DNA of 37,227 bases. Origin: Cyanosarcina radialis HA8281-LM2 (GTDB taxonomy: Bacteria > Cyanobacteriota > Cyanobacteriia > Cyanobacteriales > CCAP-1448). The DNA is taken from positions 1 to 37,227 of the forward strand of contig JAHHHA010000050.1 in the NCBI GenBank assembly GCA_019359615.1, given 5' to 3'. This document shows, one piece after another, positions 1 to 27,853 of the stretch. The position numbers were made by a program, and so were the translations under genes. Position 1 is the first letter of the stretch; each line of letters opens with the position of its first letter. The notes beneath the pieces are model-generated. The model was not told where the DNA came from, made no database searches, and worked only from the letters and a program-made list of their open reading frames with translations.

Positions 1-74
1 TTTTTGATAACAAGTAAAAACCGTAACATATGGTAAATTCAACAGTGTATCTAGGTGAAAATCCATTTTGAAAT

Positions 75-110
75 CGTGGTAAAATGTAGCTTAAGCTACA
101 TTTTACCACG
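75..110. repeat. 36-bp perfect palindrome
   Basis: Two 18-base arms, starting CGTGGTAAAATGTAGCTT, are exact reverse complements with no spacer, centred on TTAA. It lies about 290 bases upstream of the NERD-helicase gene. Base for base, it matches the dyad in front of the secreted protein at 27856 (24 of 30 central positions). It could be a protein-binding dyad, an RNA stem, or a small mobile palindrome; the sequence alone does not decide. The palindrome itself is certain. Confidence 0.9.
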
Positions 111-185
111 CGATGTCCGAAGAGCCGACATACCTAAAAGGATGCCCTGCGACGGATTGTTAAATTGAAGCTAAAATCAGGCATT

Positions 186-229
186 ATGGTTGGGTTCGTT
201 GGGTTTCCTCCCCTTCACCTAACCTACAG
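186..229. repeat. Degenerate GTTGGGTT...CCTAAC dispersed repeat
   Basis: This stretch contains GTTGGGTT-type blocks followed by ACCTAACCTACAGCT. It is a degenerate relative of the better-preserved copy at 5089-5128, which ends ACCCAACCTACAGCT. This is an intergenic repeat, and no coding sequence is visible from base 1 to the NERD gene. Confidence 0.5.
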
Positions 230-250
230 CTAATGGTACGTCGCACCGAG

Positions 251-286
251 CGTAATTGCGAATTGCGAATTGCTAACTGCGAATTG
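251..286. repeat. AATTGCG-type short direct repeats
   Basis: Imperfect reiteration of AATTGCG/GAATTGC units in the spacer before the NERD-helicase gene. The same unit is reiterated at 27761-27794. It is a short tandemly repeated repetitive sequence of the kind common in filamentous cyanobacterial spacers. Confidence 0.6.
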
Positions 287-396
287 GATTGGCTTTTGCT
301 TCATTTTTCTTTACACAATGTCCTAGATTTGCAACTCTAGGCTTAGCATTCAGTTAGGGTTGATTAGCTTAGGGAAATCAAAAGTTGAGGTGCGTA

Positions 397-2025
397 GTGG
401 CCAGGATGTTTCCCGAACGGATGCGCTCTGACGTAAAAAGCTATGCTGAAAGACGTTTATATCAGGCATTCAAAGAACAGTTGCCAGACGATTTCACCGT
501 CTTTCATCAGGTGCGCTGGCAAGTGCGCCATCTCAACAGCGGCGCTAGAGATGGTGAGGTTGATTTTGCGATCGCTTGCCCCCATTTGGGTATTTTGATC
601 TTAGAAGTTAAAGGTGGCGTTATTACCTACAACAGCGCCGCGCATAAGTGGTATAGCTACAACCAGCAGATCCAAGATCCATTTGAACAAGCGTGCGACA
701 GCAAATACAATTTGCTCGGTAGACTTAAAGAACAATATTACTGGCGCAAACGTTGGATTCCTATCGGCCATGCGGTGGCTTTCCCCGATACTCGCATTCA
801 AGGAAGGCTGCCTTTAGATGCACCCCGTGACATCATTTTAGATGCCATTCAATTGCAGAATTTATCAGATTGGATACAGGCTGTATTCAACTACTGGCGA
901 GGACATGACAGAACCAGAGGCAATTTCGATGCCAATAGTATTAGAGAACTGGTCAAAATCCTGAGTCCTTCGATCGTTTCTGAGTCAGTTCTCATTAGCA
1001 AAATTGGTACGGAAGCACAAGAATTTAAACGCCTTACTGAAGAACAAATTAATATCTTAGATTTATTAAGCCAACAGCGGCGAGTAGCTATTAGCGGTTG
1101 TGCTGGTTCGGGAAAAACGATATTAGCCCTGGAAAAAGCTTGTCGCTTAAACGAGCAGGGATTTAGCGTTTTATTAACCTGTTTCAATCGCGCTCTGGCT
1201 CAGTATTTACGCAAGCAAAAGAATATCGATCGCCGACTGAATATGCACGTTTATACGTTTCACGGCATCTGCGAGAAGTTATTCCGCGAGGCTGGTTTGG
1301 CACCAGAAAAAAATCGATTTACTGAAGAGGAGCTTTTTAATAGAGTTTATCCTAACTTACTATTAGAAGCTGCTGACAAGCTTAATTGGCGGGTAGATGC
1401 AGTCATTGTCGATGAAGGACAAGATATTTGCGAAGACTGGTGGTTAGCAATGAAATGCTTGCTTCACGATCCAGATAATGGAATTTTTTACTTCTTTTAT
1501 GACGACAATCAAAATATCTTCGATCGCCATTGGAAGCCCCCACTAGAAGAAGCACCTTTCTCACTGACTAAAAACTGTCGAAACACGCAAAAAATTCATT
1601 CTTATGTTTTGCAGTTTTATAGCGGACAGAATCTCACTCAAGCTGTCGGTCCGATTGGACAGGATGTAGAAATTTTCCACTATGACAACGATCCTCAATT
1701 AAAGAAGACTCTCAGCCGTCTGTTGCACTATCTAGTAGTCAAACAAGGATTTTCTCACCGAGATATTGTGATCCTAACCACTAAGCGCAAACAAACACTA
1801 CAAAATCAAATTATCGGCCAATTTCGCATTAAAGCCGATCCCAATCTCAACCTTCAGGAGATTCTTTGCAACACGATTCATCATTTTAAAGGTTTAGAAA
1901 GTCCGGTAGTAATTTTAGTAGAAACTGAACGGACAAATGCTAACAATTTTAACAAGTTGCTGTATGTCGGTACTTCCCGCGCTCGTCACCATTTAATTGT
2001 TTTGCAACCAAGTGGAATAAAGTAG
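397..2025 (+). CDS. NERD domain / UvrD-like superfamily 1 helicase protein
   Basis: This is a fusion of a nuclease-related (NERD) domain to a superfamily 1 DNA helicase core. The NERD part, about residues 15-140, shows Asp56 in GEVDFAI and Glu70-x-Lys72 in ILEVKGG, a PD-(D/E)XK-like triad. The helicase part has LTEEQ (Q motif) near 213, Walker A GCAGSGKT at 234-241, DEGQD (Walker B) at 339-343, DDNQNIF near 370, and C-terminal motifs HHFKGLESPVV and LLYVGTSRAR. I chose the GTG at 397, giving MARMFPER, because TTGAGG lies six bases before it and this family often begins MARM; TTG 385 and ATG 406 are alternatives. Such proteins are generally annotated as nuclease-helicases, and roles in DNA processing or defence are suspected but not shown here. 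It stands alone with no methylase or partner beside it. Confidence 0.88.
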   Translation: MARMFPERMRSDVKSYAERRLYQAFKEQLPDDFTVFHQVRWQVRHLNSGARDGEVDFAIACPHLGILILEVKGGVITYNSAAHKWYSYNQQIQDPFEQACDSKYNLLGRLKEQYYWRKRWIPIGHAVAFPDTRIQGRLPLDAPRDIILDAIQLQNLSDWIQAVFNYWRGHDRTRGNFDANSIRELVKILSPSIVSESVLISKIGTEAQEFKRLTEEQINILDLLSQQRRVAISGCAGSGKTILALEKACRLNEQGFSVLLTCFNRALAQYLRKQKNIDRRLNMHVYTFHGICEKLFREAGLAPEKNRFTEEELFNRVYPNLLLEAADKLNWRVDAVIVDEGQDICEDWWLAMKCLLHDPDNGIFYFFYDDNQNIFDRHWKPPLEEAPFSLTKNCRNTQKIHSYVLQFYSGQNLTQAVGPIGQDVEIFHYDNDPQLKKTLSRLLHYLVVKQGFSHRDIVILTTKRKQTLQNQIIGQFRIKADPNLNLQEILCNTIHHFKGLESPVVILVETERTNANNFNKLLYVGTSRARHHLIVLQPSGIK

Positions 2026-27506: not shown

Positions 27507-27549
27507 CTCCTCTTGTGGGATAGCCCAGAGGGCTATCCCACAAGAGGAG
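27507..27549. repeat. 20-bp-arm hairpin CTCCTCTTGTGGGATAGCCC
   Basis: Perfect 20-base arms with an AGA loop. The inner part is the same GTGGGATAGCC palindrome found at 3655-3681 and 5135-5161, but this copy is longest and error-free. It is in a divergent spacer where neither gene ends, so a terminator role is unlikely and a dispersed repeat is the better reading. Confidence 0.85.
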
Positions 27550-27760
27550 CTTGGCCTCAGCCTATCCAACTGCCAACTGCTATGAGGTATCCTTACTATC
27601 CAGATTCCAAAGTTATAGCAGATCTAATCCTGACTGCCATCAGCGGGGACGAAGGTGAGAAAAGATGCCTACCTCGATCGCATTTGGATTAGAAACAACC
27701 AGTCAAACATTAACCATCCTGGTAATATTTGGGCTAAAACAATTGTGAATTTCTAATTGA

Positions 27761-27794
27761 AATTGCGAATTGCGAATTAGCAATTGCGAATTGA
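27761..27794. repeat. AATTGCG short direct repeats
   Basis: Four imperfect AATTGCG(A) units, the same motif as at 251-286. A non-coding short tandem repeat just upstream of the dyad in front of the secreted protein gene. Confidence 0.6.
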
Positions 27795-27813
27795 AGTTGA
27801 CGGCTTAAATAAT

Positions 27814-27853
27814 ATATGGTAAAAAGTAGATTAAACTACTTTTTAGGTCATAT
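27814..27853 (+). promoter_or_regulatory. Dyad overlapping the ribosome site of the secreted protein gene
   Basis: ATATG...CATAT and AAAAAGTAG...CTACTTTTT form an imperfect 40-base dyad centred on TTAA and ending two bases before the ATG at 27856. The only Shine-Dalgarno-like sequence, AGGT at 27845-27848, lies within the right half, so folding would mask it. Its core matches the perfect palindrome at 75-110. A DNA operator or an RNA stem are both possible. Confidence 0.5.

Follow-up and report, generated by a model that had tools for sequence, protein, structure and literature searches.

The perfect palindrome at positions 75-110 lies within the left end of an ISL3-family insertion sequence (IS) that is repeated in the Cyanosarcina radialis genome. 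It forms a dyad between the terminal repeat and the transposase ATG, recurs at that place in many genomes, unusually well conserved for the end of a mobile element, and covaries among them. Judging from sequence comparison, we think it rather probable that this subterminal dyad of a multi-copy ISL3 left end comprises a putative transposase recognition site in its inner pairs and a putative leader hairpin in its outer pairs, and that a second, similar palindrome further along the same DNA is a separate feature.

The window, by which we mean the whole stretch of 37,227 nucleotides that was analysed, is one contig (C38) of the 65 that make up this 6.5 Mb genome (Table 1). Read on the minus strand, its first block runs from GGCTCTTCGGACATCG through the palindrome and a further 8 bases to ATG GAT TTT CAC, the transposase start, with the palindrome beginning 16 bases inward of the IS tip, just 5' of the ATG. 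An inverted-repeat scan of the window assigned the palindrome 18-base arms with a spacer of 0, folding gave a hairpin of about -25 kcal/mol, and the fold is strong against shuffled sequences (z -4.49, 0 of 200 as good); a terminator scan at this site found nothing. A genome search located the same palindrome within about 130 bases of a contig end in C5, C7, C38, C47 and C55, and a variant of it in the interior of C28. The left-end block of about 126 bases is identical in C5, C7, C38 and C47 and 99% identical in C55, while the flanks beyond the tip differ. The possibility of a mobile palindrome, which the sequence-only reading had raised, is borne out for this first site.

Table 1. Positions of the features discussed, numbered from the first base of the window
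Feature	Position	Strand	Details
ISL3-family insertion sequence, left end, cut by contig start	1..126	-	Tip GGCTCT at 126-121
Transposase gene start, truncated	1..66	-	ATG 66-64; MDFHLDTLLNLPYVTVFTCYQK, 22 codons
Perfect 36-base palindrome, subterminal dyad of the left end	75..110		Arms GGTAAAATGTAGC flanking TTAA, plus outer pairs
NERD-domain/UvrD-like helicase gene, 546 aa, neighbour outside the IS	385..2025	+	ORF and domain match
Imperfect AT-rich dyad, without IS features	27814..27853		Relation to first palindrome unsupported
Small putative secreted protein, 163 aa	27856..28347	+	ATG starts two bases past the dyad; "secreted" is the sequence-only reading of the N-terminus

The family assignment is made through the C28 relative, to which the transposase start in the window is 86% identical over 22 residues by tblastn (L041). 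The related transposase copy in C28 is split into two frames, and its pieces match the ISL3 transposase domains PF14690, PF13542 and PF01610 (Zn_ribbon_ISL3, HTH_Tnp_ISL3, DDE_Tnp_ISL3) as well as NF033550, for which the two pieces score 75.9 and 181.3 bits (cut-off 180); the assembled transposase otherwise comprises the first 22 residues in the window copy and the last stretch of the gene alone at the right ends of copies. There are also five matching right ends, likewise at the ends of contigs; they code for the C-terminal stretch seen in the C28 transposase and terminate in GGGAGAGCC. Terminal repeats beginning GGCTCTTC/T, as in the ISL3 family, are present as GGCTCTTCGGACATCG on the left and GGCTCTCCCGTACATAG on the right. 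Because the contig-end blocks are repeated, a transposase start adjoins the palindrome and the C28 relative carries ISL3 domains, we conclude that the window starts within an ISL3-family element, copies of which interrupt the assembly. Among the five left and five right contig-end copies of this genome, no left-right pair shows an 8-base target duplication. By eye, the left-end flanks of C5 and C47 share GGATTTGG/CCAAATCC, an 8-base match that would suit a duplication on either side of a two-left-ended unit, perhaps a composite of inverted copies. Transposase genes in this subgroup frequently break into two frames at an A-rich stretch (KKKTG / KKKDWG), possibly a case of programmed slippage; L015, L052 and L061 need the same -1 shift, the C28 copy (L016) needs a different one, and L047 and L054 are unbroken there.

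The element is a member of a known ISL3 group. The accessible portion of an account of Microcystis ISL3 elements describes units about 1,215 bp long that have GGCTCTTCG ends and 8-base duplications, together with a 187-bp MITE (PMC11448079). In common with the present group these have the transposase family, the tip, a gene-less miniature with a predicted stem-loop, and 8-base duplications, which are found here in miniature copies. The organisms differ, and that portion of the account mentions no conserved, covarying left-end dyad at a fixed place. Our literature search, from which subscription journals mostly fell outside, returned no description of a palindrome or covarying dyad at ISL3 left ends, and none of ISL3 end recognition.

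Across the order, the palindrome pattern (at most three mismatches) is present in 26 of 291 genomes. Taking one locus per genome, a transposase lies beside the palindrome in 16 by tblastn and three further loci (L038, L059, L063) have a transposase start by sequence; the remaining seven comprise three miniature elements (L048, L049, L050) and four loci of other kinds (L045, L046, L056, L058). Scanning for exact palindromes in 84,980 species genomes, a collection that may omit records close to the Cyanosarcina radialis genome, returned 27 of them in 26 stretches, 16 of these stretches coming from one strain, Phormidium sp. LEGE 05292. Twenty-five of the palindromes lie directly 5' of the same type of transposase start. 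One is a 68-base inverted repeat of two IS left ends arranged head to head in Phormidium sp. LEGE 05292 (L131, 2845-2912, equivalent to L092, 1946-2013), with 32-base arms and four bases between them, and one, in a metagenome-assembled genome titled Clostridium (L140), is unrelated. L140 aside, the titles of the stretches all name cyanobacteria, including Argonema, which we take to be a cyanobacterium. A similar end adjoins an annotated transposase gene on a plasmid of Gloeothece verrucosa PCC 7822 (76.9% over 120 bases), this being the one of three plasmid records that matched the IS end, the other two matching via the spacer repeats at 251-290 only. A strong left dyad general to ISL3 was considered and rejected: other ISL3 subgroups of the order, in which 12 of 31 loci examined have exact 8-base duplications, show weak dyads or none there, which implies that the ISL3 family as a whole needs no strong palindrome.

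The position of the dyad is nearly fixed. The tip and the start of the 30-base core are 18-20 bases apart in 24 distinct left ends (19 in 22 of them), and the distance from core to ATG is 11-14 bases in the 16 with the start motif matched (the eight without it include miniature elements). Covariation was assessed in 30 distinct left ends out of 38 aligned segments, a set that omits six miniature-element segments (L048, L049, L050, L096, L097, L099), L092 (a double left end) and L046 (an IS-like tip without a transposase); L045 and L058 had been excluded earlier as chance matches. Of the 510 cells, 88.2% are paired as against 81.2% in shuffles, changes on both sides occur at 11 of 17 pairs, and 39 cells carry such both-sided changes compared with 11.8 in shuffles that ignore relatedness (0 of 500 as high). 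Since these left ends were found via a symmetric pattern, the fair test is confined to the positions free of that pattern, namely the outer four pairs and the innermost pair. Here 29 cells carry both-sided changes against 10.7 in shuffles that again ignore relatedness (0 of 500), and no more than 12 are obtained when the partner is shifted by 1-3 columns, while the count of pairs with both-sided changes is within the shuffle range (146 of 500 as high). The first of the outer four pairs is paired in 27 of 30 left ends, and the following ones in 18, 17 and 10. The proposal that symmetry is kept while the sequence changes, made originally from two sites, holds for this family of 30 covarying left ends. 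The inner arm is nearly invariant across left ends, as would be expected of a protein site, and the outer pairs vary freely, as would be expected of a fold.

Gene-less relatives of the IS separate these two parts of the dyad. With up to 40 candidates scored in each of five genomes, a miniature family of about 121 bases gave at least 96 matches, some of them partial or from both strands of a single place. The three genomes with matches belong to one genus, and 14 of 27 copies extracted from 30 loci have exact 8-base duplications. In 21 distinct miniature copies (26 used, one dropped), the inner nine pairs are held in 19-21 copies, with one inner pair T-A instead of A-T in seven, a swap that may be a single event. 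The next four pairs are held in 6-14 of the 21 copies, G-U counted, versus 26-29 of 29 IS copies, and the innermost pair, which closes the loop, in one of 21 versus 26 of 29. IS right ends carry a dyad of their own, ATAAG-n5-CTTAT, smaller than that on the left and with all five pairs present in seven of 10; coding may constrain it, since it overlaps the transposase stop codon. A similar motif, with up to three mismatches allowed, is found in 21 of 22 distinct miniature right ends. That the dyad persists without the gene, and is present at both ends, favours a role in recognition of the ends, although the miniature copies, all from one genus, may descend from few masters, which limits the argument. 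Outer pairs kept mainly where there is a gene would fit a leader hairpin.

We propose that the inner nine or ten conserved pairs would be recognised as a symmetric site by the element's own transposase, with ATAAG-n5-CTTAT as the probable smaller equivalent at the right end. Less certainly, the outer pairs, which change freely yet are mostly paired, would extend the dyad to a hairpin shortly before the ATG, and this outer-stem hairpin would dampen translation of transcripts entering from outside.

The matched pair changes have a serious mutational rival, in which symmetry arises by mutation and not by selection: the polymerase switches template between the arms, producing paired changes in one event and flipping the spacer. 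The 35 distinct oriented left ends have 21 distinct loops, of which 17 are non-palindromic, and for 10 of these 17 the reverse complement is present in some other copy (null mean 1.6; one of 5000 shuffles reaches 10; 21 unoriented or ambiguous sites were left out of the count). Two copies in Phormidium sp. LEGE 05292 have TGTTAA (L126) and TTAACA (L125) before the same downstream sequence, that is, a loop flip in a single context. Homogenised arms together with inverted spacers are the effect that the accessible part of a study in yeast describes for template switching between arms (PMC8604942), and, to judge by the loop flips, this process could by itself maintain the symmetry of the arms. 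It leaves unexplained the fixed position of the dyad, the near-invariant inner arm across genomes and the miniature copies, in which inner pairs are kept and outer pairs mostly lost, and we regard it as a doubtful account of the symmetry. We extend the preferred reading, recognition site plus leader hairpin, only tentatively to a wider one, in which both ends of this ISL3 group carry fold-back dyads, the left one being bifunctional, its inner half being read in a sequence-specific way by the transposase, its outer half being kept for pairing only and throttling transposase translation; the loop flips might then be traces of hairpins or cruciforms extruded in cells, possibly in the course of transposition. 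Copies with the gene keep the outer pairs and copies without it mostly do not, which together with countable loop flips provides a natural test of selection against template switching, and if the two-layer reading is true, ISL3 end recognition becomes directly testable.

Several IS families offer precedents for one or the other layer. In IS10 and IS50, an inverted repeat before the transposase start forms hairpins in read-through transcripts. The inverted repeat described here could likewise fold in read-through mRNA, and by this analogy the palindrome might be solely a leader hairpin of the transposase mRNA that blocks read-through translation, as its fixed place before the ATG, its strong fold and its covarying outer pairs would suggest. 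Unlike in IS10/IS50, the inner dyad persists in gene-less miniature copies, and the right end also has a dyad; moreover, a promoter consensus scan of window positions 1-450, of a kind that can miss real promoters, gave no promoter-like site. A leader function alone is therefore, in our estimate, somewhat unlikely. Elements of the IS200/IS605 group have imperfect subterminal palindromes that are kept in gene-less relatives, much as here, but they are single-strand elements with HUH transposases, whereas the domains found here are of the ISL3 DDE type. Identity with GTAG REP sequences was considered and rejected. According to the accessible portion of their description (PMC3733652), these are likewise short palindromes with a GTAG motif that occur in cyanobacteria and are thought to be mobile, but their GTAG is an unpaired tag at one hairpin end, and the transposase proposed for them is a RAYT (HUH), whereas here GTAG lies inside a paired arm and the adjacent transposase is of ISL3 type.

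The second dyad had been placed in one family with the first, on the strength of 24 identities in 30 gapless positions (78-107 against 27818-27847), and this alignment is reproduced. The compensatory change reported with it stands in part: T85/A100 against A27825/T27840 is indeed a matched pair, but the three other changed pairs are broken, C90/G95 having become A/A and the two outermost G/C of the 30 bases G/G. As no site with at least 22 of 30 matches occurs in 300 dinucleotide shuffles of the window, base composition alone is no explanation of the resemblance. The fold of the second dyad exceeds that of shuffled sequences only moderately (z -1.71, 10 of 200 as good). Under a covariance model trained on left ends, the first palindrome scores 57.8 bits and the second dyad 22; genome-wide, the six IS ends score 55.6-58.4 bits, the second dyad 22 (E 0.023) and the next other site 15.8.

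These scores and identities, which make the second dyad the best non-IS site of the genome, would suit a solitary left end, since decayed, from the IS family of the first palindrome. Against this, no GGCTCT-like hexamer that could be the tip of a miniature element's terminal repeat is found within about 220 bases (L114), its locus has no transposase (tblastn, E 1e-4), and three of its four changed pairs are broken. Furthermore, loci without a transposase by the same search (tblastn, E 1e-4) reach at least 22 bits in at least 12 of 120 genomes of the order under stricter filters (G078, G019, G090, G008, G037, G059, G103, G083, G036, G080, G011 and G061, among which two pairs share a genus and L152, L155 and L156 have a tip-like hexamer within about 220 bases; G095, with its match beside an ISL3 match, and G117, with an IS-like tip, are left out). 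A decayed left end, and with it a common origin of the two dyads, is distinctly unlikely; the resemblance is probably accidental and the second dyad a separate feature, which could be an operator or leader hairpin of the 163-aa gene. The protein encoded there has no match in Pfam or NCBIfam at E 0.01. Upstream of a relative of the same family in G015 (50% identity), a repeat search found no inverted repeat of at least 10 bases, although by eye arms TGACTACA/TGTAGTCA lie 16 bases apart before the gene start, and no such dyad precedes the gene of a second relative in G026. A DNA search with the surroundings of the second site (40 of 205 candidates scored) returned the site itself and AATTGCGAATT-type neighbour repeats, none reaching the dyad, and a promoter and terminator scan gave one weak promoter-like match upstream.

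The single family of palindromes consequently comes apart, the second being a lone 22-bit site without tip or transposase that is not seen at the nearest ortholog. The sequence-only reading had allowed that an absence of further copies and of orthologous conservation would make the resemblance chance, and this applies to the second dyad, which has no further copies and was not found at the one close ortholog compared, but not to the first, which has further copies. A regulon of the NERD-helicase and secreted-protein genes had also been envisaged; the first dyad belongs to the transposase end and not to the NERD gene. The supposed regulon is thereby removed, and a matched base-pair change in a palindrome need not imply RNA structure. 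The binding consensus of the regulator NtcA is GTA-n8-TAC, with a -10 box about 22 bases downstream. That a single dyad-binding regulator such as NtcA recognises both dyads is most improbable: the GTA-n8-TAC core is present in both and occurs nine times in the window against 3.3 expected (0 of 100 shuffles), but by eye neither dyad has a -10 box at that distance before a start codon, no such dyad was seen at the nearest ortholog of the second gene, and the other seven GTA-n8-TAC sites are not among the dyads of the window. A looser search of the window for GTA-n3-TTAA-n3-TAC with two mismatches, giving at least 20 matches against 14.6 expected, was uninformative.

Other repeats occur in the window. 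At 27507-27549, upstream of an amino-acid permease gene, lies a perfect inverted repeat with arms of 20 bases and a loop of 3 (GGGCTATCCCACAAGAGGAG), and a similar sequence is found in L034 near 1355-1390. Short AATTGCGAATT-type repeats at 27760-27800 and 250-290 recur at dozens of places in the genome (at least 49 matches, self included).
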